64,000 bases of DNA from Chrysophaeum taylorii (Eukaryota; Sar; Pelagophyceae; Pelagomonadales; Pelagomonadaceae). The notes under the pieces are model-generated. The model saw only the letters and a list, made by a program, of their open reading frames with translations, was not told the origin of the DNA and searched no databases. Made by a program: the position numbers and the translations under genes. Position 1 is the first letter of the stretch; each line of letters begins with the position of its first letter. Shown here one piece after another: positions 1 through 43,565 of the stretch. The stretch is from assembly GCA_029834535.1 (NCBI GenBank), contig JAQMWT010000189.1, positions 1-64,000 on the forward strand. The letters are read 5' to 3'.

Positions 1-219
1 GTTGTAATACGAAAGGACACAGGTAATGTGATGGATTTAGGAATAATCGTCCCATAATATTATAGAGGAGCACAAAAGCTTTGAGTTCAATAGGGGATCT
101 CATGCAAGCAAGTGGTTTTCTTGAATTAGTCAAGAATCCCAGGCGAAAGTTAGAAATGCCCTCCATTTCATCTTGACTGGGATGTTCGACTGTTTTATTA
201 GAGTGCAGACGAAGGAACA

Positions 220-1026
220 GCATAGTTAAGGTTTCAAGCTCAGTCACAGTTAAGCGCACGGATCCTGTACGACTGAAAATATTGTAGGTTTTAGGTGTGG
301 ACACGAATGGTATGTCAGGAAAGACCTGCGTCCAAGGTTCGTCGACTATTAACTTGCGACTGATGGAATTAGCGTGGTCTGCAATATCCAGAAAGGAAGT
401 GACTCGTTTATTAGGCCATGAAAGCAGATCAAGAGGGCCGGTGTTATATTTGCGTGCGACGAGGATCCATCTTTCTCTGGCTTGATAATCTCCACATAAA
501 TAGCATGGAAATCGGTCACATATGTCCACCGTATAGTGCATCGTTGAGAAGATGAGATTAGCAACTCGTATATGATCTTCATACGATGCGGAGTGTGGTG
601 GAGTCATTTCCATGAAGAGAACAAGCGGCTTTAAAAGCTCAAGTACACTTAGAGCACTTGGAACAAGGAATCATCCATATCGCGCTCGAAGGTGGAAATG
701 GATCTCCCATTGATTATGTTGCGATTTGTGCATGGTGATGTCAATTCCACTATGTCAGTGTAATATCGTGCACGTTCAACGTCCGATGCTCGATGGAGAT
801 ATGTCAAAAACTTAGGTAGGGATGGGAAAACTTCGATGGAATTACCAAAACGTCTTCGTAGCATGTGCGTGATATTGTCGTCGCTCTCAACAAGAACTTT
901 AACGTTGATGTTGATTTGCAAGTCATTAGAAGCGCAAGCCAAGAATGCAGGAGTGGACATCCCAGAGCAAAGTAAAGTTACTGTAGGTATTCGTGGGCTA
1001 GGAGATGAAGTTACTGTATGGAGCAA
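220..1026 (-). pseudogene. C5-cytosine methyltransferase-like region of B1
   Basis: Conceptual reading of the minus strand shows the ordered motifs of DNA cytosine-5 methyltransferases. Motif I-like LLCSGMSTPAF is followed by VLVESDD (acidic SAM-ribose region), an SPCTNRN segment at the place of the catalytic P-C loop, FMEMTPP at the place of the ENV motif, and YQARERWILVAR matching the Q-x-R-x-R motif VIII. The same order is seen in family A at 7,594-8,380. In living enzymes this fold transfers methyl from SAM to cytosine C5. Here it sits between the protease and the expected integrase of a retroelement, so it was probably part of the polyprotein. The copy is a fossil and broken; assignment to the MTase family is by motif order only. 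Confidence 0.7.
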
Positions 1027-1044
1027 ACGTGTTGTAACCTTGCG

Positions 1045-2376
1045 TCATACAGGAGGTGGGAAATGCTTGCGTATGTAAGGCAGCTGCGAATGCATTGACT
1101 CCAGGATGGTTTTAAGCCATGGGACGTAAATTACTCGTTCCATGAGGGTGGAATATAGTTTGAGCATTTCGCGTTGTTCATTAAAAGCACATAGTCTGAA
1201 CTGTAGTGAGCGAAGTTCCATTTTACGCGCTTTTGCTTGTTGTAGCGAGTAAATTGGTAGAGTTGGCAACAGGTTACTGAGTCTAAACAAAGTAATCTTG
1301 ACATTATCATCAATTTTACTCTGGATAGATGATTGTCCTTTAAATTCAACTCCATAAAGATGTATACCAAGTTTATCTTCTCCCCATTGAGTCATACTGA
1401 TGATGTGCAGATCGGGATCGTTATGGTCGTTTTGCTTGGGTAGAAAAAGCGCAACGTCTAGCTTTACATATCCCACATTTGGATGCTTTGGGAGAGCGGG
1501 AATGACGGTCCTTATAATCATAGCATGTGTGATTCTCTGCGTATCCGTAGCAGTCTGGATAGCAGGTGATAAGGACTCGGGTAGCTTTACGATGTGGATA
1601 GGATCAGCATAACGTTTAAAGTTAATTACATGTTGAGAAGCACATGTGTCAGCATATCCTGGCGTAGTCATTAGCGGCAAATTGTACTCGTTGTACAGTT
1701 TAAGCATTGTTGCATAACAGGCATGTGTTGAGCTTTGACCAAACACGTACTGTGTCATGAAACTTTGCGTTTGTTCGGAAGGCACAACGACGAGTGTAAA
1801 ACCAGTATTTAATTTTGGTAGCAACACAGGGGGATCTGTACCATCTTCATTATCTTCATTGGTTAGATTACTGGGGAGCTCAGAGTGCGAGGAAGTTTCC
1901 CGAGCTTGACGACGAACGATAGCATTCTGAGCTTTAGCATTTATGTGCTGCAATAGCGGCTGAGGGATGTTATCGATTTCATCATCTTTAATGGACAGAA
2001 AAGTGTGGAACATTTTCTCTGTATCAGCAGTCCCCCTCTGCTCCGCATCACTGGGGGACGCTTCAGGAGCAGATGTTTCAGTTTGATACTTTTCTTCTGA
2101 AACAAGAGATTCCTTATCGGCTTCTAAGAGGTTCGATATGGTATTGGACATAGTATCAACTCGAGATAAGTAGAGATGAACTTGGGTGGCTTCATCAGGA
2201 TCTAAGGACTGTGTCGAAGCTTGAGAAGCGGTTGTCCAGAGGGTACTCAACAAGCTTTTCATTTCCTCCTGTACCATTTTAGAGTCGGTGGAGGGATTGG
2301 GATTCGCTTCCTGTAATTTACCAAACAGGTGGCGAAGACGATCAACTTGATAAGTAGCCCGGTCCATAAGAGACAT
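1045..2376 (-). CDS. gag C-terminus / protease-like open frame of B1
   Basis: An open frame of 443 residues. The first ~150 residues are polar and low-complexity with acidic stretches, as in gag linkers. Around residues 240-260 the segment YADTCASQHVI resembles the retropepsin active-site loop D-[ST]-x-A and aligns with FDSCATISLM of family A. It is followed by a family-A-like stretch (IQTATDTQRITHAM..., then HPNVGYVKLDVALFLP). The last ~130 residues match the spacer that precedes the MTase in family A. A pepsin-like dimeric protease that would process the polyprotein is the likely role. It lies directly upstream of the MTase region. Confidence 0.6.
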   Translation of the reverse strand: MSLMDRATYQVDRLRHLFGKLQEANPNPSTDSKMVQEEMKSLLSTLWTTASQASTQSLDPDEATQVHLYLSRVDTMSNTISNLLEADKESLVSEEKYQTETSAPEASPSDAEQRGTADTEKMFHTFLSIKDDEIDNIPQPLLQHINAKAQNAIVRRQARETSSHSELPSNLTNEDNEDGTDPPVLLPKLNTGFTLVVVPSEQTQSFMTQYVFGQSSTHACYATMLKLYNEYNLPLMTTPGYADTCASQHVINFKRYADPIHIVKLPESLSPAIQTATDTQRITHAMIIRTVIPALPKHPNVGYVKLDVALFLPKQNDHNDPDLHIISMTQWGEDKLGIHLYGVEFKGQSSIQSKIDDNVKITLFRLSNLLPTLPIYSLQQAKARKMELRSLQFRLCAFNEQREMLKLYSTLMERVIYVPWLKTILESMHSQLPYIRKHFPPPV

Positions 2377-3770
2377 ATTACAGCGTGCGTTACGGTTAGA
2401 GGAAGATGAGTAGACAGGACGATCGAAGCTGGTACCTTTGACATTATAATTTGAGGGTGAACGATAGTACGACGTGTCACGGGGTGAAATTGTCGATGCT
2501 TTATCTTTTGCATTACGAAGCCAGACTGTCCAGCTACAGCGGCTAACAACGAGTAAGCGTTGTTTAGAGAGTCGTGGGATTGATGAATAGTATCCATCAA
2601 TAATACCTTAGGTGGCTTGGTAGCGGTAGTACCAGGGATGTAAGGGATCCAGGAAGCGGGTTTATCCAAGCGTCGGTTAGAAGAAAACTTTGTCTCATTA
2701 TATATCTTTAACAAGAATTCCAATAGTGGACGAACGTCGTTAGGATCAACTAGCTTTAACAATTCGGGATCGTGACTCGAGTTGTTACTAGAGCGTGTCT
2801 CGTAGAGTTTACACCATTCCAATAAAGATTGAGAATAGCGCTCGTGATCCGAGGGATTAGCATATAGACGGTAGATCTCCTCGTGAGCTTTAAGAGTGAT
2901 TCTGGAGTTATTAAATTGGATTGATGCTTCATCATTATTTAAGTGCTTTGCCTGAGATTGAAAGGCAACGAGTTGTTCGACAAATACACGGGCATACCAA
3001 TTAACATTTAGAGACATTCGATTAAACTGAAATTAAAGCCCAGTTACATCTGTACAAGACACTATCTCATAGTAATGATAGGCTAAAATCATTACAGCAC
3101 GCAATTTATTGGGATGGGCAGTAATTGCATAAATTTTCTTTAGTTGAGGCCACATAGCGAGAGCGGGCTTTTCCTGTGACTCCATATTAAAGAATGTGTA
3201 CAAGAAACCAGCATAAGTTTCGCAGTGTTTGATCCAATCGGCATTAGAGAGACCTGTAAAGGATATGTTAGTTAAAGATGAATCATACACTATTGATTTA
3301 GGGAATCGGGTATCTAATAAAGTGAGGACACGTTTGACATCCTTATTTAATTCAGGACGAACAAGGTTATACGACTCTTGGTAGTAACGTCGTTCAAGAT
3401 TATTACGGGCATCAACTGTTAGTTGATGGGAAGAGTTGACGTGCTAAATCTTTAAATGTTCGGGCAGGGCATCTTCATCAGGTAAGTTTAAATCATTAAT
3501 TTGCTCAGCTTTCCATTGAGCGAAGATGATATCAACTTCTTGTTCAAGAAGTTGATTATATTCCGGAGCATTCCGGGTGTAAGCTTCATATGAATCGAAG
3601 CAGAATAACGCGTCCACATATGGACTTGTCATATGCCTGCGAAGCGCCTCAATTTGCAAGCTCACCTTGGTTGAGTTATCTTGGAAACGCAATCCTGCGT
3701 TAATTTTATCAACGAGGATTTGTTCTTGTTTGTAGATATCCGTGGTAGATATTGTTTTGTGTTTTGACAT
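2259..3770 (-). pseudogene. gag-like region of B1
   Basis: The region begins with an ATG at 3,770 just inside the LTR/leader. Its first ~108 residues (MSKHKTISTTDIYKQEQ...) include KVSLQIEALRRH and FDSYEAYTRNAPEYNQLL, which correspond to the gag start of family A near 33,460-33,845. The following stretch keeps short stretches shared with family A (for example NWY-VFVEQ and RAVMILAYHYYE). No zinc knuckle is visible. The product would be the structural capsid-type protein. The region looks broken. Confidence 0.6.
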
Positions 3771-5950: not shown

Positions 5951-6430
5951 ATGAGACAGGAGCCAGTAGCAGCGCAAGGTCAGGTGACAGAACGTTTGCG
6001 TGGTCGAGCAATTGAGCGTTGGACCTGAGCATCGTCTGCATAGTCTGGAACCGTGCTGTGCAGTTGGTTTGCATTGTCTCGTCTGCTACATCAATGGGCT
6101 GGCTGGTGTAGCTGGCCGTTGTGGTCTTATCTTTCGTCTTGTCATCCATTAGAGACTGCGAGATAGTACTCGTTGCTATGTGCGAGACTAGAAGTAGCGG
6201 TTGAGCAGCACTGGAGAGCTGAGTGCTTTCTTGTCTGGCAGTTGCTGTGGCTTTGGAGTTCCAGAGACACGATTGCATGGCCTCCGTCATATTCGTCATC
6301 GCGCGGCCGATGTCGTCTGCGCCGGCGTGAATTGCGACTGGAACTCCGGCTATTGCGGCGATGGCGGGGGCTCGGACTGGGCGTAGGACTATTGGCCTTT
6401 TGATCCGGGCTCTTACTTCGGTAGGTGACT
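5935..6430 (-). pseudogene. Unrecognised protein-coding scrap, minus strand
   Basis: A long minus-strand frame (5,811-6,473) reads like protein between about residues 15 and 180. It is rich in Met, Thr, Gln and Ser with stretches such as AMTNMTEAMQSCLW and SLMDDKTKDKTTT. It ends where the plus-strand family A sequence starts (about 6,430) and overlaps the gag-like frame at its other end. I suspect a gag linker of another retroelement, but there is no diagnostic motif. Confidence 0.3.
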
Positions 6431-7245
6431 TGCTTCGCCTAAACGAGCAACTCGTGTTCGCAGAAGACATCATCTATGATGTAGACGTTCATCTATCCTC
6501 GACCGAAAAGTCGTCAAACTACGTGGAGCCACAACATCATACTGTTGCTACTGCTCCCACCCCAACGGCAACTCCTCCTACTACAGATACCAAGGATGCC
6601 TCCAACACACAGGGTAATCCCTCCGATATTGTGCCTAACTTCTTTGCTGCTTCCGCCATCTCGGCTTTACCACCAGCGTTACTGTCCTCGCTATCTTCAC
6701 AGGTCCAATCTGCCCTCAACTTACCACCACAAGCCGAAACCAAAAGGGATGCCGATCATACTTCGCTATCGTCATTTGATGAAAAGCACGGCATGGCTGA
6801 TGAGGCTGACGAACCATCACCACCTGTTCAACCGATTATCATTCCAACGAATCTGCTATTGCTGGAGAACTTCTTCACAGCCAGCCTCTCCACCACTTGC
6901 ACACATTCGGAAAACGCCTTCCTCACCAACTACATGAAGGTAAACAGTGTCCCTCCACATTGTTCTTTTCTATATTTTGACTCTTGTGCTACCATCTCAT
7001 TGATGTCCACTTACGATTTTGCAATACCTAATCACATTATTCCACTGGACTCCAAATACGCGCCGATTGTTATTCAAACAGCCACTGGACAACAACGTGC
7101 CTCACACATGATGTTAACACGTAACATTGTTATTCCCCTACCAGATCATCCACAAGCTGGTTATGTTAAGATCGACTTCGCTTTATGTCTTCAGCCAGTG
7201 CACGACCGACATCTCGCTATCCTGAGAATGCTCGAGTGGAACTAG
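6430..7245 (+). CDS. gag end and retropepsin-like protease, A1
   Basis: The open frame (6,361-7,245) becomes family A sequence at LLRLNEQLVFAEDIIYDV. It runs through a Thr/Pro-rich linker and the STEKSSNY motif, then an acidic stretch. At about residue 210 comes the protease-like loop LYFDSCATISLMSTYDF, then IQTATGQQRASHMM and GYVKIDFALC, which fit the beta-strand pattern of a retropepsin. Family B has the parallel loop ADTCASQ. The enzyme would cleave the polyprotein. The same region is found at 49,412-50,120 on the minus strand. Confidence 0.65.
   Translation: MLRLNEQLVFAEDIIYDVDVHLSSTEKSSNYVEPQHHTVATAPTPTATPPTTDTKDASNTQGNPSDIVPNFFAASAISALPPALLSSLSSQVQSALNLPPQAETKRDADHTSLSSFDEKHGMADEADEPSPPVQPIIIPTNLLLLENFFTASLSTTCTHSENAFLTNYMKVNSVPPHCSFLYFDSCATISLMSTYDFAIPNHIIPLDSKYAPIVIQTATGQQRASHMMLTRNIVIPLPDHPQAGYVKIDFALCLQPVHDRHLAILRMLEWN
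6501..6521 (+). repeat. Border motif site 1 (gag/protease)
   Basis: First of five A1 occurrences of the motif GACCGAAAAGTCGTCAAACTA-type, encoding STEKSSNY just before the protease. The A2 counterpart is at 49,994-50,014 and the A3 counterpart at 31,989-32,009. Confidence 0.7.
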
Positions 7246-7553
7246 ACGAACCTGACCACTGTGTTCAATGATCGAGCTGAGCCAAAGCTCAGCGCTGTCA
7301 CGAGCCTAATTTACCTGCTCTCCCTTGTCTCACTTACAACATCGCTCGCGACAAGCAACTCGAACTTCGTTCCCTCGCATTTCCCCTCAAGCGATACCAT
7401 GAAAACAGGGATCTACTGGCATACTACAACTACCTACTCCAAAGAGTTTTACCAGATCGCCCGTGGATTCGCCCTTTGGTTCTCAATCTTCGGAAACAGA
7501 ACAAGTTTGTTCAACAAAACACGCAGCCATTAACCTGACTACTCTCACGCCCA

Positions 7554-9038
7554 GTGTTTCTCTCACAAGAGTCCAATCCCCGCAAACCCTCTGTCATGTT
7601 ACTTTGTTCTGGTTTGTCAACTCCGGCGTTCCTGTCTCAAGCCACTAATGACTTAGGCTTAAATATCAATGTAAAAGTTGTTGTTGAGTCTGATGATACG
7701 CTTGTTCGTATGTTACGCCACCGTTTCCCTACTGTATTATTATTTGAATCTCTCCCCGCCTTTATTAACCATCTTCACCTAATTTCACCAGAGGAAAGGC
7801 GCACATTCTATTGTGATATAATTGAGATCACTCCTCCCTGCACGAACAGGAATCTACTAAAACAGCATAAGACAGAAGACTTACACAGCCTGCTGGACGA
7901 TTCTCTTTTCGACAGCATGCTGTCTGTCATCAAGTTACTCCAGCCCTTGGTACTACTGGCTGAGATGACGCCTCCGCATAAGTACTGTCATCAAGACCAC
8001 ATCACAGTGGCCAACCTTATCCATGCAACACTCGATTACTGTGTCGATGTTGTTGATAGGTTCCCGACCTACCTCTGTGGCGACTACCAATCTAGAGAAA
8101 GATGGATATGCATCGCACGCAGGTATTCTACTGGACCAATTAAATTATTGTCGTGGCCTATCCTCCATCCACGCCCCTTCCTAAAGATCGTGGATGATCT
8201 ACAAGCTATTCCCAAGCGCCTTTGGCTACCTAAACACGTATCCAAAGACTGGATCCGGGTGTTCCCCGATCCTCCATATATCCCCGTTCCTAAAACGTTT
8301 GCACCTTACTCTCGCACAGGTTCTGTTCAGCTTACTATGGCTGACCTTGAATCCCTCAATATGTTACTGCTTCGCCTTCACTCACAACAGGCTCACGAGC
8401 AACGTACTCACTCTGTTCAATCCGAGTGTACTTATCATCAGCTGTGCTTTAAACGCTCCTCTATGGAGCCGCTACCCAATGCAACCTACCCTATACACGT
8501 CAAGGTTTTTACAATCCTCTATAACTTGTTTGCCAGCTTACACACTAACTCACCCACTCCTGTGTCTTATTACATAACCGTTTTCGAAACTAACCAACCG
8601 TCACACAGGTTACTACTTACAACCTCATCAACATCACACAACTCCCACTTCTTAACTGGTGGCCACCACTCTGACGGCAACCTCACCATAGAGAACGCCA
8701 CCACCAAATATCATGCTTCTATTGACGCGTTTGGAAGCACGTATACGTTCACTGCTTCCGACATTCCCCGCGACCGGGACAGGTCCATATATTTGGAGCC
8801 GTTTGTGGGTTACTTGTGGATAGTCCAAGCCCTTCCCCAAGTTGGCTCCGCTGCCACCTATGGCACCGCCATACAAAAGCTCTTGTCCAGATGCTCTCTT
8901 GTGATGCCTGGCTGCCTTACCTACAAGGCCACCGACAACTCTTTCGACTACAAGGATTCTCATTTTGCTCTGGAAGATCACCACTTATCTCATAGTCGCT
9001 ATATAGGGTACCTTCGTGGAAGTGACCGCTGGAAGTGA
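7554..9038 (+). CDS. DNA cytosine-5 methyltransferase-like domain within the A1 polyprotein
   Basis: An uninterrupted frame of 494 residues. Motifs of C5-MTases appear in order: motif I VMLLCSGLSTPAF (residues ~14-26), the acidic SAM-binding VVVESDD (~45-51), the catalytic loop IIEITPPCTNRN (~91-102, Pro-Pro-Cys), VLLAEMTPP (~135-143, in the place of ENV), YQSRERWICIARR (~178-190, Q-x-R-x-R motif VIII), and GSVQLTMADLESL (~257-269, resembling motif IX R-x-LT-x-x-E). The segment between motifs VIII and IX (~70 residues) would be a small target-recognition region. The last ~200 residues are a linker towards integrase. The enzyme would use SAM to methylate DNA cytosines; inside a retroelement it could mark element cDNA or host chromatin. 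Activity is not shown by sequence alone. Confidence 0.82.
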   Translation: MFLSQESNPRKPSVMLLCSGLSTPAFLSQATNDLGLNINVKVVVESDDTLVRMLRHRFPTVLLFESLPAFINHLHLISPEERRTFYCDIIEITPPCTNRNLLKQHKTEDLHSLLDDSLFDSMLSVIKLLQPLVLLAEMTPPHKYCHQDHITVANLIHATLDYCVDVVDRFPTYLCGDYQSRERWICIARRYSTGPIKLLSWPILHPRPFLKIVDDLQAIPKRLWLPKHVSKDWIRVFPDPPYIPVPKTFAPYSRTGSVQLTMADLESLNMLLLRLHSQQAHEQRTHSVQSECTYHQLCFKRSSMEPLPNATYPIHVKVFTILYNLFASLHTNSPTPVSYYITVFETNQPSHRLLLTTSSTSHNSHFLTGGHHSDGNLTIENATTKYHASIDAFGSTYTFTASDIPRDRDRSIYLEPFVGYLWIVQALPQVGSAATYGTAIQKLLSRCSLVMPGCLTYKATDNSFDYKDSHFALEDHHLSHSRYIGYLRGSDRWK

Positions 9039-10626
9039 CCGCAAACTCTGCTCTAAAATCCACTCCATGCATGCTCCATTGCCCACCGTCCGAGGGTACG
9101 CCAATATTATTTTACTCGACCCCCGCGACGGGAAATTACGCTACCCCACTCGACCGGAGTTGATTCGTGCTAACAACCACACAAAACAACAGGAAACCTT
9201 CCTCTTGTCTCTACGCCATGACCTTTGCTGTGACATGCTCAGCAATGCTCTGCCTGCCGGTACGTACAGCACTCTGTACAAGCACCTCTCGCTCCTCGTT
9301 GCCGATATTAAATCCCTGATGTTGGACCCTACCTTCCAACATACTGCTGCCGTGACGAAGAAACCCGATGTATCCAATTTCATGACCGTTGATCAAGCTT
9401 CCACCACGTGCAGCACAGATACCTTGTCTTTGGCTCAATCTTTTATGATGTCTATTTCCAGCAGCTGCTTGACCGAAATGTCGTTAAACTATATATCTTC
9501 GTCCTACGAAGATACTCTCGTTACTCGTGATGATGAGGATGCACCTCCAAGTGACCCTGCTGCGCACCAGGATGACGATACACCGCCTCCCCCTGCCTTA
9601 GACACCGAACTCAAGTTCGATGTTCGGCGCAAACGGCATATTCCCTCTCATCCCATTCTTCGTAAGTCCCTCGCACACGGATCCACCGAATATCTCAATG
9701 CCAAAGAACGTGCCAATCGCTTGCACCGGGTGCATCACTGCCCCGACAACGTCGCTGCCAAGGCCCCCAACGTACTTGCTCGCCCTGGATTCTCTGCTTC
9801 TGACATACCATATCGCGACTTATGCACCGACTGCATCGCACACAACAAGCGCCACCCGCACAAGCATTTCAATGCGACCAAGCCCTCTTTTGACCAAACT
9901 CACAAAGCCGGCGAAGTCTGGGCGTGCAGCTATGTGACCATCCCATCCGAATGGGGAGGCTTCACACATATCATCGTCTTCAAGGAACTCATTTCGAAAT
10001 TTCTCTTGGTGTACTTTACACGCACCACCAACGCCGCGGAGTTCACTCAGGCTCTGGATTTTGTGTATGACTTCTGTCGTACACAACTCAACGTGCACAT
10101 GCGCACCCTCTACTCCGATGCCTTCAAGCCCTACTTTAGCCACCACATTACCTCCCCGTACCGCGTCGATAAGGGCATTCAACTCATCGCCTTCCCGCCG
10201 TACATGCGCCACTTTAACTTTGAAGTTGAGTCCGCCATCGGTTTCATCGCCTCCGCCTCCTCAACTCGCCTTCGTTCTCTCCTTAATGCTCACTATCGTG
10301 GCGCCAAGATCGTGGAACCCAATCCTCAGCACCTTTTATCTGCGTTCACTGAACACGCTGCTTTGGCACTTCTTCCTTACAATATGCACTTACGTACCTG
10401 GCGCCGACCAGCTTTATCGATCACAACTCCTCCGAGTTTGGCGCTACTTCTGCATCTCTGGCTGACTTGGAGGAATACCTTCTGGTCTCTACAGAGTTTA
10501 TCACCCAGGTCTTACACACCGACCCTACTATCCATATCCAACTGGAATCTGCTTCTCCTACTCCTACTGACGCTGTTTCCGCTTATCCCGAAGTTGCGCA
10601 CACTGCCTCGACCGCAACGTCGCTAA
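9016..10626 (+). CDS. Copia-type integrase frame, A1
   Basis: The frame begins with a linker, then the border motif LTEMSLNY (residues ~152-159). The integrase zinc-binding region follows as NRLHRVHHC...LCTDCIAHNK (H-H-C-C pattern). The catalytic core shows TLYSDAFKPYF (second Asp) and HFNFEVESAIGFI (Glu). The first catalytic stretch is clearest in the sister copy A2 as EVWACDGGYVTI. Integrase would insert element cDNA into the host genome. The part of the frame after about 10,320 is not obviously integrase. Confidence 0.72.
   Translation: MEVTAGSDRKLCSKIHSMHAPLPTVRGYANIILLDPRDGKLRYPTRPELIRANNHTKQQETFLLSLRHDLCCDMLSNALPAGTYSTLYKHLSLLVADIKSLMLDPTFQHTAAVTKKPDVSNFMTVDQASTTCSTDTLSLAQSFMMSISSSCLTEMSLNYISSSYEDTLVTRDDEDAPPSDPAAHQDDDTPPPPALDTELKFDVRRKRHIPSHPILRKSLAHGSTEYLNAKERANRLHRVHHCPDNVAAKAPNVLARPGFSASDIPYRDLCTDCIAHNKRHPHKHFNATKPSFDQTHKAGEVWACSYVTIPSEWGGFTHIIVFKELISKFLLVYFTRTTNAAEFTQALDFVYDFCRTQLNVHMRTLYSDAFKPYFSHHITSPYRVDKGIQLIAFPPYMRHFNFEVESAIGFIASASSTRLRSLLNAHYRGAKIVEPNPQHLLSAFTEHAALALLPYNMHLRTWRRPALSITTPPSLALLLHLWLTWRNTFWSLQSLSPRSYTPTLLSISNWNLLLLLLLTLFPLIPKLRTLPRPQRR
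9471..9491 (+). repeat. Border motif site 2 (MTase/integrase)
   Basis: Second occurrence, encoding LTEMSLNY between the MTase block and the integrase zinc region. The counterpart in A2 lies at 41,867-41,887. Confidence 0.7.
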
Positions 10627-11590
10627 ACTATAATTCACCAGCCATTGTTGGTCCTGACGAATATAAGGTCCAAGAAGCTGACGTTTCCATTGACGAAGAT
10701 AAACTCAAGTGCCTCCACGGTTTATCGCCTGAAAACAGGCACGCCCACCTCAAGGCCATCGCCAAGGAACTCCACGACATTATCCGCTTTGGCTGCTTCA
10801 AACTTTCCTTACCCGACGGTGTCTCTCGTCCTATTGACAGCAAGATGGTGCTGAAGATTAAAACAGACTCTGCAGGCAAATACGTCAAGCACAAGGCTCG
10901 CCTCGTGCTACGTGGCTTCCTAGCATCTCTTGGCGCCGATTTCTTTGGCTCCTCCAGCCCCATGGCCACCATGACCGCAATCCGGGTACTACTAGCTATT
11001 GCAGCATACAAGCAATTGCCTGTCTACCATGCAGACGTCCCGAACGCCTTCGTTCAGTCTGACATTGATGCCAACGTCTATGTTCAGTAACCAGACGGCA
11101 TCAAGCTTATCGACCCCGATGACGCTAAGTACAAGGGCCGACGTCTACCGAAACTGCTGAAGTCACTTTATGGACTTCGGCAATCACCATCTCTTTAGAA
11201 CAAAGAGATAGACGGATTCTCCCATAGCCCTGGCTACAAACGCCTGCATTCGGATTCTTGCCTATATGCTCGAGTATCCGCACATGCTAAGTTCGTCGTA
11301 TGCAGTCTGTCTGTAAACGACATTGTTATTGTGTCCAATGACGACCCTCTTCGTACTGAATTACAGGATGCCCTCCACAAACGGTATGCTGTAGAGCAGT
11401 TTGAACCTGTCCATACCCTCCTAGGCATGCGCGCGTGTCGCACATCTGACGGTTCCATTTCTTTGGATGTGCAAGCCAAGCTGGATGAACTCTTCGCTGA
11501 TCACCCAGTCTTGCAGCAACTGACCCCGCTTAAATATCCTATGTCATCGTCCTTCAAGTATAAAGATGGCACTCCCGGCCCTGAAACATA
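10467..11590 (+). pseudogene. Copia reverse transcriptase region, A1
   Basis: The region reads EYKVQEADVSIDEDKLKC, then RPIDSKMVLKIKTDSAGK and KARLVLRGF, the usual copia RT start. VYHADVPNAFVQSDI carries the first catalytic Asp (motif A). KSLYGLRQSP is the conserved copia stretch, and a V-x-DIVIVS segment corresponds to the YVDD box (SVDDIVIVS in A2). RT would copy element RNA into DNA. The region is part of the polyprotein between integrase and RNase H, and it looks broken. Confidence 0.75.
10610..10630 (+). repeat. Border motif site 3 (integrase/RT)
   Basis: Third occurrence, encoding STATSLNY immediately before RT. The counterpart in A2 lies at 39,845-39,865. Confidence 0.7.
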
Positions 11591-11591
11591 G

Positions 11592-12500
11592 TTGTACATA
11601 AATTCGCACTTTGCCACTCTCCTTGGCAAGCTGGTGTTCATGCAAGTTGCCTGCAGACCCGACTTCTCGCAGGCCTTGGACAGATGTTCGCGTGGTATGC
11701 ATGCACCTACGTATGTTCACGTCCAAATGCTAGAGCATTTACTTCGCTACCTCAAGAAGCCGGAAAACCGCTCACTTCGCCTCTGGTTCCATCCTAAAGG
11801 TAATGCCATTGAAGCTCACCTTCGCACTGTCTTCGCTAATCGAATTGATCTATCTACTGTGGTCGACTACCAACCGCATGATGTATATACTGGACAGTTT
11901 GATCCCTTAGTTGCCATGGTTGACGCTGACAACGCCCCCTCCTTAGCACAGGAAGATAGGAAATCTACCACCGGGTTTGTCTTCTATCTTTTCAACTGCC
12001 TTATTGGTTGGAAAAGCGAACTTCAACCGATCGTCTCCTGCTCAACTCACGAAGCTGAGTTGATTGCCCTCAGTATTTGTGCTGATGAAGCTGTCTGGCT
12101 ACGCAAGCTGCTGTTGGAACTCTCCTTTGTCGTCAACCCCACCTTCTACGTCAACAATGCTAATGGTGAGAACACCGCTGATCCTGTTGACTTCGATGAC
12201 AATGACAACCCAATTGCTGAAGATATACGCTTCATCAGAAGCCTACCTCTCTTGTCTGACAATGCTGCCTTAGTTCACACCTCTAATAACCCAGATGGGT
12301 CCTCTCGATCCAAGGCACTTTCGAGCAGATGGTTTAAAATCCGCGAGTACATCTCGCTACAGAAAATACGAGTCCATCATGTTCCCGGCAAGCTGAACGT
12401 GGCGGATGGTTTTACAAAGCCACTTGCTGCTGAGTTCTCCACTTTTCGTTCTCTACTCGGTATGTATCGTGCCTCTGACGACAAGCTTTTACAGGATTGA
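11592..12500 (+). CDS. RNase H and RT C-terminus, A1
   Basis: Open frame of 302 residues. It starts in the RT thumb/connection (FMQVACRPDFSQALDRCSRG, typical copia). It continues to the RNase H core: MVDADNAPSLAQEDRKSTTG (first Asp), CSTHEAELIALSICADEAVWL (Glu and Asp), and IREYISLQKIRVHHVPGKLNVAD (final His/Asp segment). RNase H removes the RNA strand during reverse transcription. The end of the frame is also the end of the standard copia coding region, but this family continues with further frames. Confidence 0.8.
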   Translation: MYINSHFATLLGKLVFMQVACRPDFSQALDRCSRGMHAPTYVHVQMLEHLLRYLKKPENRSLRLWFHPKGNAIEAHLRTVFANRIDLSTVVDYQPHDVYTGQFDPLVAMVDADNAPSLAQEDRKSTTGFVFYLFNCLIGWKSELQPIVSCSTHEAELIALSICADEAVWLRKLLLELSFVVNPTFYVNNANGENTADPVDFDDNDNPIAEDIRFIRSLPLLSDNAALVHTSNNPDGSSRSKALSSRWFKIREYISLQKIRVHHVPGKLNVADGFTKPLAAEFSTFRSLLGMYRASDDKLLQD

Positions 12501-12517: not shown

Positions 12518-12538
12518 GACCGCAACGTCGTTAAACTA
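12518..12538 (+). repeat. Border motif site 4 (RNase H/ORF3)
   Basis: Fourth occurrence, just after RNase H and before ORF3. The nucleotide sequence is as well kept here as at coding sites, and it is also present in A2 at 37,907-37,927. Confidence 0.65.
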
Positions 12539-12570
12539 GCCCTGGCCTTACCTTCTTTTGCCACAAATTT

Positions 12571-13335: not shown

Positions 13336-13494
13336 TTACTACTGTTGCTCGGTCGCGTGTACAACATCTTGACGACTACGCATCATCCTCTGATGATACA
13401 GAACCGCTATCACTCCGGGATGTAATGTTCGGCCGCACTTATACTCAGGCAGAACATTAAGACTACCTGCGCCCCCTTTTTTTTTTTTTAAACG

Positions 13495-14072
13495 TTGACC
13501 GAAACGTCGTTAAACTACTCACACTCCACGCTAGACGCTACTCTGGAGATATCTTCGCCATCGTTACCTACGTCTTCTGCTTCGCTTGCTGATTTCGACG
13601 TATTGTGCCAACAAGTCGACCAACTCCAGGAAACTCTTCGAATCTATATTGCCGAGGCTGCCATTGCTTCAATCACCTCCCTGGAGAACCGGCTCTTTCC
13701 CTCCTACAGCCAACACCCACGTGTTTCTTATAACACTGTACAAGATCACAGAGCTGTTGTCTCGCTTAACACTCACCGCTCATGACCAACATGCTGCCAA
13801 CTACTCCTCCCCGGACGATCACCTCCTTCATCTACGTGACAAGTTGCTCTCATGCTTCAGAGCATTCCGTCCGCTCTCATGTGAATCTGAAGACTCTTCT
13901 ATCTTCGTTCGCCAAGTCCAACTTTTTGGAAAACCAACTGGACACCTTTCAACTAGATTCTCTGTCGCCATCCATACTGAATGCTCTACTTGCACTCACC
14001 CTTCTCTTGGCACCACATCATTCAGCTATTGGTGTTCACCACCTTACAGCAGAAGCTGACGATGATTGTTAA
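13495..14072 (+). pseudogene. Extra 3' region (ORF4), family A
   Basis: The region begins with LTETSLNY, the recurrent border motif. It continues as a Leu-rich, helical protein (DFDVLCQQVDQLQETLRIYIAEAAIASI) and ends in ILNALLALTLLLAPHHSAIG before the 3' LTR. Family B has a comparable last frame at 34,666-35,153 with a hydrophobic C-terminus. The role is unknown. A late hydrophobic segment is compatible with a membrane-associated protein, but no signal peptide or fusion peptide is evident. Confidence 0.4.
13497..13517 (+). repeat. Border motif site 5 (ORF3/ORF4)
   Basis: Fifth occurrence, encoding LTETSLNY at the start of ORF4. A T-rich homopolymer run lies just upstream (13,478-13,489). Confidence 0.65.
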
Positions 14073-14306: not shown

Positions 14307-14620
14307 ACAGAAAAATCTGCTGCCTCTTACCCTTATCCGTCCGTTGAGAACGTGATCTCTTCCTTACCCTTCTTCTTCCTTTATACACAACAAAATAGTC
14401 CTCTGATTTGTGCTTACGCTCATCATCATGGTCTAGCGCGCCCCGAGGTATGTAGCACTATACACTTTACCTTTCTCGTGTAGTTCTAGATGCCGCCTGT
14501 CGTGTTCTGAGGATATAGGGAACATACCTTTTCATTCCCCGAATTAAATACTGCCAGACTTTCATGATGAGACGGGATGGTTTCCCAGGTGACTTACCAC
14601 TGCTTGCTAAATGCTCTGCA
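14307..14620 (+). repeat. Partial 3' LTR of family A
   Basis: It starts at ACAGAAAAATCTGCTGCC right after the purine tract CTCGAGGGGGT. It matches, in reverse orientation, the outer ends of the LTRs at 34,660 and 52,382 (GCAGCAGATTTCTCTG). Similarity to the minus-strand LTRs continues to TGCTAAATGCTCTGCA and then stops where element C begins, so only part of the LTR is present. The 14,072-14,307 stretch before it has no gene. Confidence 0.75.
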
Positions 14621-14639: not shown

Positions 14640-14880
14640 AAATCCGAAATAGGGTTAGTATCCCCTGTTCTAGGGTTAGTTCACTTAACTTTGCCAACTT
14701 TGATTTAAGAAAACGCTGTGTTATTCACACCGGCTGTCCTCGATGAAGAGACAGATTCGAGGACAGACTGCCACTGTTCTCACGCTCTGCTGAAGAGTAA
14801 CACAGTTGTGATTACTGTTCTCTAGGTATTGGGCACCAGTCCCGGTATCAGCAGAGCCCCAGGATTTCCAGACAAGTCAA
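14640..14880 (+). other. LTR end and leader of element C
   Basis: GAGCTAGAAAATCCG followed by two TAGGGTTAG-like copies, then GATTACTGTTCTCTAGG and CCAGTCCCGGTATCAGCAGAGC. The last part resembles a primer-binding site complementary to an initiator-tRNA end (TGGTATCAGAGC in many plant elements). A very similar arrangement is at 5,240-5,480. No gene is present. Confidence 0.4.
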
Positions 14881-14909
14881 GCTCACCGACGTTCCTGAAC
14901 CCAAGCAAA

Positions 14910-16871
14910 ATGCCGACGAACCAGGAACTCCAGAAGGAGATAGAGCAAGAAGCTCGTTTAGAAGCCAAGTACCAAAGAGACATGCAACAACAAGCTCAAG
15001 CGTACGAAGCTCGGCATAAACAAGAGATGCAAGACCAAGAAACTCGCATGATGGCTCAATTACGCGCGTTGGCCACCCAAGTGCAAGCAACGCAAGCACC
15101 ACTACCTGCCGTCGCTGCTGCGGCTCCGCCTCCCACTCCGGCTCAAAAAGATCCCAAGTCTAAGATCAACACCTTTAGTGACCCACCAAGTGCCGTTCTC
15201 AAGTCCATGGACTCGGCGCAAGTCACACCCCAAATGCTCTCCTTTCGTGTCATGCAATTGTTCGTCGAACATCTGATGCCTGAAACAGGTATAACTCAGT
15301 ACTTCCTACAGGGCTTCTACACGTGGGAATCCGTCCTGCGCGGATCTAACGATCTCGCTGACGCTCTTCTAAGCCACTGTATCGACGAATACGACAAGGA
15401 CCCCGACAACCACTCTACCGCCGGGAACACGCACGATTTCCAAGGCCGTTACGTCTACTACAAGGGTGTCTACCGCAAGTTCGGCAAGCACTTCCTGGAC
15501 AACGTCTACGAGCCAAAACTCCAAGAACCAAAAGATCAATACAAGGACCCAACCGATATGACAAAAGGCAAGTTATGTCCAATAACTCAACCACATCTCC
15601 AAGGAAAAGAAGCCGACTTCATCGTATATCTCCGCGAGACTGTACACCCCCTCTTTCGTCGTTTCATACATGCCGGTAGCGACTCCGCCAAGCACCCAGC
15701 ATACGACGAAATCGATGCACTCGGATCCTCCTGCCCGATAGGACTCGAATTCGTGCTTCAAGTTCGCCTCGCACTCGATAAGCATACGGGCCAGAACCAC
15801 ATCCACCATGCGCATTATGTTTACAATGCCTTTCTGGACACGCCGTTCAACCCTGAAATCCAGGAGCCAGCTCACTACATCGACTACATGCGTCATGTCC
15901 AGCAGCAACTCCGCCAGATCACCACGGACACTTCTCTCCAACTCCCCGACAATAAGATCCTCGAAGAAATTCACCAAATTCTTCGATTCAAGTACCCCCC
16001 AAGCTTGCTTGACTCCCGCGCCCCAACACACATAAAGGGCTTTGCACGTCTTGCTAACTGTCTGCGCACTCCCATCGATTCGCTGTTACTCGACGAAGAC
16101 AAGGACGCCATCCACCACCTTCCTAAGCTCATCGCTCGCATCACCGTCATTTCGACGTTCGAGCGCAACTTTTGGGCTCACCTCAAGCCTCGCCCCACTC
16201 TCAACTTCAAGCCCTTGCGCTTCGTCACCGACTTTGGTAGTCTGCCAACAAAGGACAAAGACAACCCCCGCTTTCGCTCCCGCCGTCATGGTCTCCACCT
16301 CACCGACGACGATGATGACACCTCTCCCTCTGAAGACGACACCCCACCGGACCCCGCCGAAGACGCCGACCCCGTCGCTGTTTTTCTCACGGAGGCCAAC
16401 CTTGATCAAGAGGAAGACAACGACCTCATTCACCAACCCCACGCCTACCGCAAGAAGCAAATTTCGCGGCACGTCAAAAAGCCCCCTCCAGGCAAAAAGC
16501 CACCTAATCCTCGCTCCCCGTTTTACTACGACGTCAATGACAGTCCTAAGCCCAAGGCCACCCCTGTCACCCCACCGAAGAACAAGCACCGTCCCCGCGC
16601 TCCTCCCGTCACCCCTGACAAACGAGAGCACCCGCATCTTCGCAAGGTCACCTTCCCAACACAACCTCATCCACCCAAATCGTCTACTCCAGACCAGCGC
16701 TTCAAGGTCCCCCTTCGTGAAGTCCGTCGCAAGGTCCAAACCATACGGAATCTTAGCCAAGCCGGTCGCCAACATACGTCCAGCTCCGAGCATATGAACA
16801 AGCTCATCAACCTCATCACCACCATTTCCGACGAGACACTTCTTTCCGAAGCCGAAACTGACGCCGCATAA
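14910..16871 (+). CDS. gag-like protein of element C
   Basis: I start at the ATG at 14,910 (MPTNQELQKEIEQEARLEAK); the frame is open further upstream into the leader. Residues ~1-75 form a Gln/Glu-rich coiled coil. Residues ~110-460 are a mostly helical region with conserved-looking aromatic positions (FLQGFYTWESVLRG, DFIVYLRETVHPLFRRF, HYIDYMRHVQQQLRQI), compatible with a capsid domain. The C-terminal ~200 residues are acidic and then Lys/Pro-rich (KKPPPGKKPPNPRSPF), a probable RNA-binding tail without a CCHC knuckle. Role: particle structural protein. The assignment rests on position and composition. Confidence 0.6.
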   Translation: MPTNQELQKEIEQEARLEAKYQRDMQQQAQAYEARHKQEMQDQETRMMAQLRALATQVQATQAPLPAVAAAAPPPTPAQKDPKSKINTFSDPPSAVLKSMDSAQVTPQMLSFRVMQLFVEHLMPETGITQYFLQGFYTWESVLRGSNDLADALLSHCIDEYDKDPDNHSTAGNTHDFQGRYVYYKGVYRKFGKHFLDNVYEPKLQEPKDQYKDPTDMTKGKLCPITQPHLQGKEADFIVYLRETVHPLFRRFIHAGSDSAKHPAYDEIDALGSSCPIGLEFVLQVRLALDKHTGQNHIHHAHYVYNAFLDTPFNPEIQEPAHYIDYMRHVQQQLRQITTDTSLQLPDNKILEEIHQILRFKYPPSLLDSRAPTHIKGFARLANCLRTPIDSLLLDEDKDAIHHLPKLIARITVISTFERNFWAHLKPRPTLNFKPLRFVTDFGSLPTKDKDNPRFRSRRHGLHLTDDDDDTSPSEDDTPPDPAEDADPVAVFLTEANLDQEEDNDLIHQPHAYRKKQISRHVKKPPPGKKPPNPRSPFYYDVNDSPKPKATPVTPPKNKHRPRAPPVTPDKREHPHLRKVTFPTQPHPPKSSTPDQRFKVPLREVRRKVQTIRNLSQAGRQHTSSSEHMNKLINLITTISDETLLSEAETDAA

Positions 16872-16880
16872 TTCCTCCAG

Positions 16881-17440
16881 ATGTTAACGTCCGATCCCCA
16901 AGACGATCAACCTGATGAGGACGAAGCCGAAACCGACGAACAAGACGACAAAGGGCATCTCGGCTTCTATGACGACAAAGGTCAACTAGACCTCTACGAC
17001 GATGCCATTCCCGAAACCCAAGATGAAGAAGACTCCGCCGAAGACTACGCCAAACGTCACAATGACTACATGCGTGCTCTCCACAAGAGCCGGCTTTTTC
17101 ACTGATGGTTGCCGACGACGCCTGTGCCGCCAACCACACCTTACTTCATCAGGCACCAAACCTCCAGATGACGAATTTCCCGACTTCATCCACTATTTCC
17201 ACGCGAGTCGCAGATTTTCTTTGTGCAGCTTACACTCCAGACAAGACCTCAAAGAAGACTAGCTCCCTGCACGGATGCAATGGCCCCGGCACTGAAACCT
17301 CATTGATTGACGGTGGCGCATCTTTTTGCTTTACGCGCACATCAAAATTTTGTTCCCGAGACCATCCGCCGATTTCCCGAACACACCATTCATATGGGAC
17401 GAGGCACTCTTACAAGTCACTTTATCGGTGTTAAACCGTT
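16881..17440 (+). pseudogene. Protease-like region of element C
   Basis: Starts with a very acidic stretch (DDQPDEDEAETDEQDDKGH) continuing the gag tail. It then reads GPGTETSLIDGGASFCFTRT in one frame near 17,285-17,345. SLIDGGAS resembles the D-[ST]-G-A active-site loop of retropepsins. Location between gag and the MTase-bearing part supports it. The region looks broken. Confidence 0.45.
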
Positions 17441-17996
17441 GTATCTGCAGGCTGCAGGTCTCTCTTCGAAGGATACTAAAGACAAAACCGGTTACGTTTT
17501 ATATCTCGTATTTATGGTAGTCCCGCAATTCAGACAATGTCTTCAAGTTATTGCAACATCTAAGCTCAAAGCTCTGCATGTACAAACAGACCCGCCACTG
17601 CCCCACGAGCCCTACCTTTCTGAGCTCCTAAAGTTCTCAACCTCAGACCCCCACAATTACGCAACACTTCTAGGAAAGACCGCCGTCGTACTCGCCGCTC
17701 GCAAACCTAACGGCCTGTTGTCTCTGCCATCCCACCCCCAGCAAACATTCGCCACTGTGGTCAGCTTTCACACAAGAAAACGAATGTCCCTCAAAGATGA
17801 GATTGCACACATCACACAGCATGTCGCAAAGACACGCTCAAAGTCGCACACGCTTGACTTCGCGAAGCTACAAACCCACTCACTGTATCTTGCCGAACTG
17901 CTCAACATCCAATCCGCTGTCGTCCACTACGCCTTCAATGGCTCCGCAGACCTCTCTGTGCAAACACCAACCTCAGCCGGGTTCGACTGGGCATGA
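17307..17996 (+). CDS. Spacer frame of element C
   Basis: A 229-residue frame with no recognised domain. It includes ARKPNGLLSLPSHPQQTF and KDEIAHITQHVAKTR. By position it corresponds to the segment between protease and MTase in families A and B, which also lacks an obvious domain. The frame ends where the gypsy fragment begins. Confidence 0.4.
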   Translation: MTVAHLFALRAHQNFVPETIRRFPEHTIHMGRGTLTSHFIGVKPLYLQAAGLSSKDTKDKTGYVLYLVFMVVPQFRQCLQVIATSKLKALHVQTDPPLPHEPYLSELLKFSTSDPHNYATLLGKTAVVLAARKPNGLLSLPSHPQQTFATVVSFHTRKRMSLKDEIAHITQHVAKTRSKSHTLDFAKLQTHSLYLAELLNIQSAVVHYAFNGSADLSVQTPTSAGFDWA

Positions 17997-20060: not shown

Positions 20061-20071
20061 TCGTCCAGTGA

Positions 20072-21223
20072 CTCCACCAAGGGCACGGACGCGAGCGGCC
20101 AACCCCTCTGCTCAAAACAGCCATTATTGCAGGTGGACTTCACCTGGAGGGTTTCGACACTTTTCTCAAGCGCTTCGACAAACGCCTAACTGTCGTAGTC
20201 ACCTGTGAAATCAACGATATCCTGCGCACCCGTGCGCAACACCTCTTCCCGCATGCCAAGCACTATGCGGACCTCAGAAAACTCAATGCCGCACTCCAAA
20301 CCGGCAAAATACGACTCCCTACATTCGACCTGGCAGTTTTTACTTTGCCCTGCCAACATCTGAGTGTAATGAAGGACGACGACGGTTATGCCACTCCGAT
20401 CACCGCCGACCTTTTTGTCAAAGAACAACTCCGCTTCGTTCGTTGCACGCTCCCGACCTATGCCATTGTCGAGAACGTCCCTCCCAACCCCCGAACTCAC
20501 CATGAGTATGCTCAACTCGCCGAAGGTTATCAGCGCTTAGGCTACTTCCGCCATTCCGGCGTCTACAATGCCTCTGCTTTTGGTGATGTCATCAGCAAGA
20601 CACGCTATCTCGCTGTGTATGCCCGGCATCCGCTCACTGGCTACAACCTCGAGAAAACCGCCTCTCCTTGGTTAACCTCGCCTCCGAGCATGGTTCCTCT
20701 CCTGGATCCCAGTCACACCATCCCTGACGATCTCTGGATCGCCAAACCCGCCCTTCGTGGTACAGTGTCCCGTTCCACATTGGACTACTACCAGCACAAG
20801 GCCACCTACTCCTACAAGCCCGCAAACGCCTCGAAACTCTCGATTTCCGAGAATGCCCGCATCTGCCAAATGCTCGCACGTCTCAACAAGCCCTTCACGG
20901 ACCTCGGTCTCGATGCCGACAGCACCCCCTACGCCACAATGGCGTCCATTTCCAACCTACTGGTTTTCACGCTCCTGCGCACTCTCGCCGCTTGGAACAC
21001 CATCCGCTGTTTTCATGCCTCGGAGTCTCAATGTGATTCCCATTTGGATGGAGCCATCACCAGCACCGCCGCTACTGTCGTCGCCTGTGGCTACTTCCCG
21101 CGCGCCTCCCTCACCCTCCATACCAGGCCCCCTAAGACTTTCGACTGTTCCCATCAACCCGCAGTCTTTTCCCCAACGCACTCCTTTTCCCTGGATGTTC
21201 CCCCTTACCCTTGCGATCGTTAA
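20072..21223 (+). CDS. Divergent DNA cytosine-5 methyltransferase-like domain of element C
   Basis: A continuous frame of about 384 codons, open before its first ATG (20,345). Motif I-like AIIAGGLHLEGFDTFL is followed by VVVTCEINDILR (Glu of motif II), HAKHYADLRKL (Asp of motif III), FDLAVFTLPCQHLSV (catalytic Pro-Cys-Gln), PTYAIVENVPPN (ENV motif VI), AFGDVISKTRYLAVYAR (motif VIII) and SKLSISENARICQML (motif IX-like). This set is more canonical than that of family A, including a true PCQ and ENV. It would methylate DNA cytosine. The C-terminal ~90 residues are a linker like that following the family A MTase. The sequence is not closely similar to family A. Confidence 0.82.
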   Translation, partial: LHQGHGRERPTPLLKTAIIAGGLHLEGFDTFLKRFDKRLTVVVTCEINDILRTRAQHLFPHAKHYADLRKLNAALQTGKIRLPTFDLAVFTLPCQHLSVMKDDDGYATPITADLFVKEQLRFVRCTLPTYAIVENVPPNPRTHHEYAQLAEGYQRLGYFRHSGVYNASAFGDVISKTRYLAVYARHPLTGYNLEKTASPWLTSPPSMVPLLDPSHTIPDDLWIAKPALRGTVSRSTLDYYQHKATYSYKPANASKLSISENARICQMLARLNKPFTDLGLDADSTPYATMASISNLLVFTLLRTLAAWNTIRCFHASESQCDSHLDGAITSTAATVVACGYFPRASLTLHTRPPKTFDCSHQPAVFSPTHSFSLDVPPYPCDR

Positions 21224-41536: not shown

Positions 41537-43008
41537 AAGTCGCGATACGGTATGTCAGAGGCAGAGAAGCCAGGGCGAGCCAGTACGTTGGGGGCCTTGG
41601 CAGCGACGTTGTCGGGGCAGTGGTGCACACGGTGGAAGCGATTGGCACGTTCTTTGGCGTTGAGGTATTCGGCAGATCCGTGTGCGAAGGACTTGCGAGG
41701 AATGGGATGAGCGGGAATATGACGTTTGCGCCGAACATCGAACTTGAGTTCGGTGTCCAAGGCAGGGGGAGGCGGTGCGTCGTCATCCTGGTGCGCAGCA
41801 GGGTCACTTGGAGGTGCATCCTCATCATCACGAGTAGCGAGAGTATCTTCGTAGGACGAAGATATATAGTTTAACGACAATTCGGTCAAGCAGTTGCTGG
41901 AAATAGACATCATAAAAGATTGTGCCAAAGTCAAGGTATCTGTGCTGCACGTGGTGGAGGCCTGGTCAACGGTCATAGAATTGGATACATAGGATTTCTT
42001 CGTCACGGCAGCAGTATGTTGGAAGGTAGGGTCCAACGTAAGGGATTTAAGGTCGGCAACGAGGAGCGAAAAGTGCTTGTGCAGTGTGCTGTACGTACCA
42101 GCAGGCAGAGCATTGCTGAGCATGTTGCAGCAAAGGTCGTGGCGAAGAGACAAGTGGAAAGATTCTTGTTGTTTGGAGTGGTTGTTAGCACGAATCAACT
42201 CCGGTCGAGTGGGGTAGCGAAAGTCCCCGTTGCGAGGGTCGAGTAAAATAATGTTGGCATACCCTCGAATGGTGGGCAATGGAGCAATCATGGAGTGGAT
42301 TTTAGAGCCGAGTTTGCGGTCACTTCCACGAAGGTACCATATATAGCGAATATGAGATAAGTGGTGATCTTCCAGAGCAAAATGAGAATCCTTGCAGTCG
42401 AAAGAGTTGTCGGTGGCCTTGTAGGTAAGGCAGCCAGGCATCACAAGAGAGCATCTGGACAAGAGCTTTCGTATGGCGGTGCCATAGGCGGCAGCGGAGC
42501 CAACTTGAGCAAGGGCTTGGACTATCCACAAGTAACCAATAAACGGCTCCAAATATATAGACCTGTCCCGGTCGCGGGGGACGTCGGAGCCAGTGAACGT
42601 ATACGTGCTTCCAAACGCGCCAATGGCAGCATGATATTTGGTGGCGGCGTTCTCTATTGTGAGGTTGCCGTCAGAGTGGTGGCCACCAGTTAGGAAGTGG
42701 GTGTTGTGTGATGTTGATGAGGTTGTAAGTAGTAACCTATGTGACGGTTGGTCAGTTTCGAAAACGGTTCTGTAATAGGACACAGGAGTGGGTGTGTTAG
42801 TGTGTAATCTGGCAAACAAGTTATTGAGGATTGTAAAAACCTTGACGTGTATAGAATAGGTTGGATGAGGTAGCGGCTCCATGGAGGAGCATTTAAAGCA
42901 CAGCTGATGATAAGTACACTCGGATTGAACAGAGTGAGTACGTTGCTCGCGAGCCTGTTGTGAGTGAAGGCGCAGCAGTAACATATCGAGAGTTTCAAGG
43001 TCAGCCAT
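41416..43008 (-). CDS. MTase-to-integrase linker and integrase zinc module, A2
   Basis: A 530-residue frame beginning at MADLETLDMLLLRLHSQQ, the end of the MTase motif IX-like region. A ~370-residue linker of unknown function follows, then border motif LTELSLNY (41,867-41,887), an acidic stretch, and NRFHRVHHC...LCTDCIAHIK (H-H-C-C). The linker is conserved between A1 and A2, so it may fold; I recognise no domain. Confidence 0.65.
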   Translation of the reverse strand: MADLETLDMLLLRLHSQQAREQRTHSVQSECTYHQLCFKCSSMEPLPHPTYSIHVKVFTILNNLFARLHTNTPTPVSYYRTVFETDQPSHRLLLTTSSTSHNTHFLTGGHHSDGNLTIENAATKYHAAIGAFGSTYTFTGSDVPRDRDRSIYLEPFIGYLWIVQALAQVGSAAAYGTAIRKLLSRCSLVMPGCLTYKATDNSFDCKDSHFALEDHHLSHIRYIWYLRGSDRKLGSKIHSMIAPLPTIRGYANIILLDPRNGDFRYPTRPELIRANNHSKQQESFHLSLRHDLCCNMLSNALPAGTYSTLHKHFSLLVADLKSLTLDPTFQHTAAVTKKSYVSNSMTVDQASTTCSTDTLTLAQSFMMSISSNCLTELSLNYISSSYEDTLATRDDEDAPPSDPAAHQDDDAPPPPALDTELKFDVRRKRHIPAHPIPRKSFAHGSAEYLNAKERANRFHRVHHCPDNVAAKAPNVLARPGFSASDIPYRDLCTDCIAHIKRHPHEHFNPTKPSLSKLTRPAKSGRATAAM

Positions 43009-43014
43009 AGTAAG

Positions 43015-43565
43015 CTAAACAGAACCTGTGCGAGAGTAAGGTGCAAACGTTTTAGGAACGGGGACATATGGAGGATCGGGGAATACCCGGATCCAATCTT
43101 TGGATATGTGTTTGGGTAACCAAAGGCGCTTAGGAATGGCTTGTAAATCATCCACGATCTTTAGGAAGGGGCGTGGATGGAGGATAGGCCATGACAATAA
43201 GTTAATTGGTCCAGTAGAATACCTGCGTGCGATGCATATCCATCTTTCTCTAGATTGGTAATCGCCACAGAGGTAGGTCGGGAACCTATCAACGACATCG
43301 ACACAGTAGTCGAGTGTAGTGTGGATGAGGTTGGCCACAGTTATGTGGTCTTGATGACAGTACTCTTGCGGGGGCGTCATCTCAGCCAGTAGTACCAAGG
43401 GTTGGAGTAGCTCGATGACAAACAGCATGCTGTCGAAAAGAGAATCGTCCAGCAGGCTGTGTAAGTCCTCGGTCTTATGCTGCTTTAGTAGAATCCTTTC
43501 CTCTGGTGAGATTAGGTGAAGATGGTTAATAAAGGCGGGGCGAGATTCAAATAATATTAATAATA
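43015..43565 (-). pseudogene. MTase region of A2, C-terminal part
   Basis: Holds PLVLLAEMTPPQEYCHQDHI, TYLCGDYQSRERWICIARRY and RTGSV, matching the A1 MTase motifs VI, VIII and IX. Its other part is 48,477-49,050; the MULE lies between. Confidence 0.75.

Follow-up and report, generated by a model that had tools for sequence, protein, structure and literature searches.

The frame at 7539–9038 and its element

The 64,000-nt stretch of the Chrysophaeum taylorii genome analysed here (the window) carries on its plus strand an open frame of 499 codons, from position 7539 to a stop at 9036–9038 (494 codons if counted from the GTG at 7554), which encodes the motifs LLCSGLSTPAF, TPPCTNRN, AEMTPP, YQSRERWICIAR and QLTMADLESL in that order. 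This frame is the N-terminal part of the second open reading frame (ORF2) of a copia-type retrotransposon family that we call A, and consists of a predicted C5-cytosine methyltransferase (MTase; about 7587–8540, +, motifs I to X, with motif X placed by eye) and a C-terminal extension. The original prediction, made from the letters of the window, had described a 494-residue methyltransferase frame between the protease and the integrase of a copia-like element, and the open frame with its motifs in order is seen both in the window and in other copies in the genome. In the genome surveyed (70.8 Mb in 697 contigs), 90 matched stretches encode the family A frame, a lower bound in which one copy can account for several stretches, and the same motifs are found in two relatives (P0002 and P0003; the window MTase is P0001) that come from other data sets; the frame is therefore not a product of chance. 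The 30 best-scoring stretches were fetched, a sample that includes the window copy and is biased towards intact copies, and these are 89–100% identical. In other family A copies the frame stays open beyond this point, taking in integrase and reverse transcriptase (RT), for up to 1691 amino acids, and the stop at 9036–9038 thus reflects a frameshift that is peculiar to the window copy. The predicted 494-residue unit is open as claimed, but the product is not a free protein: it is the N-terminal piece of the ORF2 of a truncated copy.

Judged by gene order and domain matches, the element is of the Ty1/copia type, with gag-protease, an in-frame UGA, MTase-integrase-RT-RNase H and a long terminal repeat (LTR). 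The location foreseen for the MTase is borne out, with a protease-like region upstream and integrase and RT downstream. The window copy is without the 5′ part of the element, and the 3′ part of ORF1 that remains (6331..7245, +) is broken; it contains an FDSCA motif, by which we take this region to be the protease, and a Pfam scan of the region in the window and in another copy gave no match. In one other copy ORF1 comprises 960 amino acids, with the protease-like region at its end. An in-frame TGA (7536..7538, +), followed by CTA, precedes ORF2, in which the MTase is followed on the plus strand by an integrase part (9007..10320; rve at about 9901–10143, E 0.0039, below cut-off), an RT part (10353..11090; RVT_2 at 10806–11084, E 3.8e-18) and an RNase H part (11592..12500) assigned by position and by eye, without a Pfam match. 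Relative to copy A2, described below, about 870 bp are deleted near 10319. Ten family A copies were examined over about 12 kb each, and in the ORF2 of another copy an integrase match under cut-off likewise lies upstream of the RVT_2 RT within one Pol (rve 0.0076, SH3_retrovirus 5.6e-4, RVT_2 7.7e-42).

The LTR, of about 313 bp (in the window the 3′ LTR lies at 14308..14620, +), starts with TGCAGAG in three and ends with CTCTGCA in five of the six copies shown, and in all six it is followed by GGTTATGGGCCC, a tRNA primer site that presumably pairs with the anticodon arm of initiator tRNA-Met. One copy measures about 11.6 kb from LTR to LTR, with LTRs 90% identical over 290 bases, and the LTR pieces of another are 98% identical over 187 bases. 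Extra open reading frames are found between RNase H and the 3′ LTR, at 12535–14059 (+) in the window and in other family A copies such as L056 (101–1999), where the product of 633 amino acids has Cys-pair motifs seen by eye and weak coiled-coil matches under cut-off.

The MTase domain is too diverged for a direct Pfam match. The PF00145 match expected for the frame was absent when P0001 itself was scanned with the profile, was obtained for P0003 (23.0 bits, cut-off 22) and was narrowly missed by P0002 (20.2 bits), while the window copy of a second family, B, reached 35.0 bits (E 1.4e-8). The assignment to the C5-MTases is therefore transitive: P0003 lies over the PF00145 cut-off, family B matches both PF00145 and family A, and the modelled core fits. 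This core, modelled alone and with modest confidence, has the expected Rossmann-like fold and matches C5-MTases, with other MTases tied within 1 Z; Dnmt2, DNMT3A and DNMT3B are among these tied matches. The catalytic Cys (motif IV), Glu (motif VI) and QxRxR (motif VIII) are present in order in all 30 fetched copies, and together these lines of evidence uphold the proposed identity. The TPPCTNRN and AEMTPP variants, which had been singled out as unusual, are also real and retain the catalytic Cys and Glu; P0003 has TAPCQ. M.HaeIII and M.HhaI, both of PF00145, have PCQ and ENV, whereas PCT and AEM are found here within a retroelement polyprotein. A sequence search of the PDB gave rows at chance level alone (HhaI at E 0.95 with profile A2), profiles A1 and A2 found no relatives among viral contigs, and a protein search with the B profile returned nothing at E 0.01 among 7999 candidates scored.

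Families B and C and the in-frame UGA

Three MTase-bearing copia families, A, B and C, are found in the window. The family B MTase (20072..21223, +; AIIAGG, TLPCQHLS, VENVPP) is parted from its gag and protease part (14826..17996, +) by an insert of about 2.1 kb (about 17985–20095), which holds a gypsy-type integrase with H2C2 and rve matches at 18127–19740 (+). As this integrase belongs to the insert, we rejected the assignment of B to gypsy that its position next to the MTase would suggest, and we place B in copia because in another genome copy a single frame (1952 amino acids, overlapping a gag in another frame) runs from the protease-like region through MTase and integrase to RVT_2. Family B counts 91 matched stretches in the 70.8 Mb, and PCQ is kept in seven of seven aligned rows. 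More family B pieces lie at 24358–28770 (−; RVT_2 1.5e-16, rve 0.019). The family C copy spans 2–3032 (−) and comprises the 3′ part of ORF1 with the protease region (1045..2607, −), ending in a TGA at 1045–1047, and an MTase in two frames (2..1044, −), with TSPCTNRN in 652–1044, MEMTPP and YQARERW in 2–646 and one frameshift between them. The protease region is 31% identical to that of A over 273 residues, and the two MTase pieces are 54% and 49% identical to P0001. At least 150 stretches match family C (150 scored of 878 candidates), and among these at least 31, the window's own included, are 99–100% identical to the window.

By sequence, the MTase comes right after the protease region in A, B and C, and integrase and RT follow it in A and B. 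We suggest that the MTase was captured once, in a common copia ancestor of the three families. Independent capture by A/C and by B at the same protease-integrase junction would be in line with the low identity of the A and B MTases (about 21–23%), with their C-terminal extensions, which gave no match when compared, and with a poorly resolved tree of A, B and host-like MTases, a set that includes no DNMT3 sequences. However, we consider independent capture improbable, as the position is the same and Pol is colinear in A and B (RT 35% identical over 312 positions, integrase region 23% over 529). Furthermore, the MTase profiles of A and B match (E 8.8e-7), and A scores higher with B (53.2, where 100 shuffles reach at most 24.0) than with either of two host-like MTases (21.2 for L001 and 31.1 for the other).

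The TGA ahead of ORF2 is kept in 29 of the 30 fetched family A copies and was lost by an indel in one, although this conservation is unexceptional by itself, 36% of nearby codons being equally conserved. The codon that follows it in the 29 copies is CTA in 18, ATG in 7, ATA in 2, and CCA and CTG in one each. Family C has a TGA at the homologous place, in the window (1045–1047) and, by eye, in 8 of 10 fetched copies, the junction being lost or replaced in the other two. UGA-CUA and UGA-C are leaky contexts for termination. We suggest that translation of the MTase and of the Pol domains behind it depends, in A and C, on UGA readthrough in the contexts UGA-CUA and UGA-CGC, and that re-initiation would also be possible in the one A subfamily that has UGA-AUG. 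If the UGA were instead a strict stop, MTase-Pol would have to come from a separate or spliced RNA or from re-initiation. The AUG that directly follows UGA in this subfamily (7 of 30 copies) points in that direction, as does the fact that no stimulatory RNA structure stands out downstream of the UGA. On the other hand, neither the remaining A copies nor the C copies shown have an AUG right after the UGA, and ORF1 and ORF2 are in register across it in the window's C copy and, both being long, in four of ten long A copies (elsewhere ORF1 is broken nearer its end). A strict stop thus seems to us rather unlikely, and we favor readthrough.

Selection on the domain and its possible substrate

C96, E137, Q179, R181 and R183 are invariant in the 30 fetched family A copies, and the unusual T97 and M138 (of PCT and AEM) are found in all 30 as well. 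Ka/Ks was calculated by the Nei-Gojobori method, pooled over pairs with Ks > 0.02 and skipping stop codons. Over the 30 copies it was 0.15 for the MTase core (434 pairs) and 0.24 for the C-terminal extension (429 pairs); over ten fetched copies and the window it was 0.11 for integrase (55 pairs), 0.18 for RT (54 pairs), and 0.22 and 0.27 for the linkers. The MTase is therefore constrained about as much as the replication enzymes, which indicates purifying selection on it like that on RT and integrase. Selection within the family had been proposed from two copies in the window, A1 and A2, and the proposal stands by virtue of the genome-wide copies but not by the argument from which it was drawn. 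In A2 (42316..43560, −), where the family A MTase region occurs a second time in the window, the parts around motifs I and IV are absent and a TAG interrupts the sequence; the loss of these catalytic motifs disqualifies the A1/A2 pair as evidence of conservation.

It could be that the domain has lost its catalytic function and that Pol retains it for its structure or for binding nucleic acid, which would agree with the PCT and AEM variants and with the absence of strong CpG decay from the copies (see below). We find this very doubtful, given the invariant Cys, Glu and QxRxR, the retention of PCQ by family B and P0003, and an MTase Ka/Ks as low as that of RT. Instead, we think it probable that the frame is the first domain of a copia Pol and a C5-MTase, acquired once, expressed by UGA readthrough and serving to mark the nucleic acid of the element itself. 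In the least certain steps of this proposal, the MTase would be packaged together with RT and integrase and would deposit 5-methylcytosine (5mC) on nucleic acid of the element itself, most likely on new cDNA, in which case incoming copies would carry a 5mC mark before or at integration.

Among rare variants, C to T changes amount to 1.88% at CpG and 1.20–1.46% in other contexts, and G to A changes to 1.65% and 1.09–1.33%. The observed/expected ratio of CpG is 0.89–0.99 in the ORF2 of ten A copies, compared with 1.09 in the window and 1.25 at 54–64 kb, and synonymous shuffling gave CpG z values of −0.7 to −3.1 in five copies. The CpG deficit of the copies is weak at most, and CpG depletion was rejected as proof of self-methylation since the signal is too weak. 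It counts against heavy, lasting CpG methylation, but is compatible with methylation in other contexts, with transient marks and with RNA as the substrate.

Dnmt2 acts in an anticodon loop and affects its cleavage, and Drosophila copia uses half-tRNA priming. An enzyme that is active on RNA (genomic RNA or primer tRNA), as in Dnmt2, would fit the little CpG decay of the copies, the presence of GGTTATGGGCCC with its presumed tRNA-Met match after the LTR in six of six copies, and a structural match to Dnmt2 that is tied with others. An RNA substrate has also been offered for the SymbioLINE enzyme, which was inactive on DNA in yeast (PMC5890265, in the passages cited here). Family A, however, scores 21.2 with the Dnmt2-like L001, under the best shuffled-B control of 24.0. 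Half-tRNA primers are moreover used by copia elements without any MTase. We therefore give an RNA substrate a small chance, and favor marking of the new cDNA.

Known element-borne methyltransferases and the host genome

DNMTs have been described in LINE and DIRS elements of Symbiodinium and in a Gypsy element of Klebsormidium (de Mendoza et al., 2018, PMC5890265), and Symbiodinium Copia is stated there to lack 'any DNMT domain'. The original prediction regarded the window element as such a system, which is right for an element-borne DNMT and not for the element class, as the passages cited from that paper concern LINE, DIRS and Gypsy, whereas the Pol here is of the RVT_2 copia type. In yeast, the DIRS enzymes methylate, and no activity was seen for the LINE and Gypsy enzymes, a result called inconclusive in the same passages. 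KnitGypsy-Dnmt3 of Klebsormidium nitens is, as described there, likewise an LTR retrotransposon with a C5-MTase inside Pol under purifying selection, but it has a Gypsy Pol, a Dnmt3-class enzyme and a charophyte host, whereas family A has a copia Pol (RVT_2, integrase before RT). SymbioDIRS-Dnmt3 and SymbioLINE-Dnmt resemble our families in the very many element C5-MTases per algal genome, with Ka/Ks mostly < 0.2; they differ in being DIRS and LINE elements rather than LTR copia with an in-frame UGA, and SymbioLINE is CpG-depleted while the copies here hardly are.

One sentence in PMC12344493 (2025) speaks of LTR Copia and DIRS elements in streptophytes and dinoflagellates, and its 'LTR Copia' DNMT3 would likewise be a C5-MTase in an element called Copia, but the sentence cites the 2018 paper, which says Gypsy, and the passage gives no architecture. 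In the passages cited here, PMC6338049 names Gypsy and DIRS; PMC12477816 reports, for Ectocarpus, an N4/N6-type MTase carried by a Sola element and names no C5-MTase in Copia; PMC9998398 treats diatom CoDi copia elements as targets of DNMT5-dependent methylation and mentions no element-borne DNMT; and PMC9033089 has nothing on a copia-borne C5-MTase. In the open-licence PMC literature we found no report of a chlorophyll-c alga whose copia elements carry a C5-MTase in Pol. The class of the element, and the depth of a lineage that counts three families, two of them with the UGA in common, exceed the published cases that we found.

Cytosine methylation usually acts on retrotransposons. The lineage described here keeps an MTase of its own within Pol, under selection that matches that on RT in strength, in many copies and with a young family included, and whether and why retroelements mark their own DNA or RNA becomes testable in a 71 Mb genome. 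The copia superfamily thereby joins, at depth, the cases known from LINE, DIRS and Gypsy elements. More tentatively, and with considerable doubt that all parts hold together, the C5-MTase may be a core part of Pol in an old copia lineage, gained a single time ahead of the divergence of A, B and C and kept since, made by readthrough in A and C, present in some 330 matched stretches in the 70.8 Mb (a lower bound, in which some belong to one copy), spreading recently in C, and perhaps the main cytosine MTase of the cell.

The host is probably a chlorophyll-c alga, perhaps a diatom or an alga related to diatoms, as suggested by the 84 genome matches of PF00504, the light-harvesting family; of two proteins taken from these, one came nearest, in the PDB, to fucoxanthin-chlorophyll a/c proteins and the other to assorted algal light-harvesting proteins. 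The dinoflagellate spliced leader, searched as one pattern and by exact matching only, had no match in the genome, and within the limits of this search a dinoflagellate or Perkinsus host finds no support. PF00145 has 57 genome matches, and the eight loci that were fetched and inspected comprise six of family B, L001 and L002. L001 (1498–2577; PPCQPHTR, PF00145 4.1e-19) is presumably a Dnmt2-like host protein. L002 (1006–3537; PF00145 7.9e-18) is a C5-MTase that belongs to none of the copia families; its motif IV reads TSCVDYSS, its frame is 2086 amino acids long, and it is either the host's own DNMT or part of another mobile element. Elsewhere in the window, long GC-rich open reading frames at 21649–24440 (+) resemble a Helitron-type replication protein by eye, LINE-like RT frames, also by eye, lie at 29184–31992 (−), and short direct repeats at 46799–47007 code for PPASTE-like units on the plus strand.
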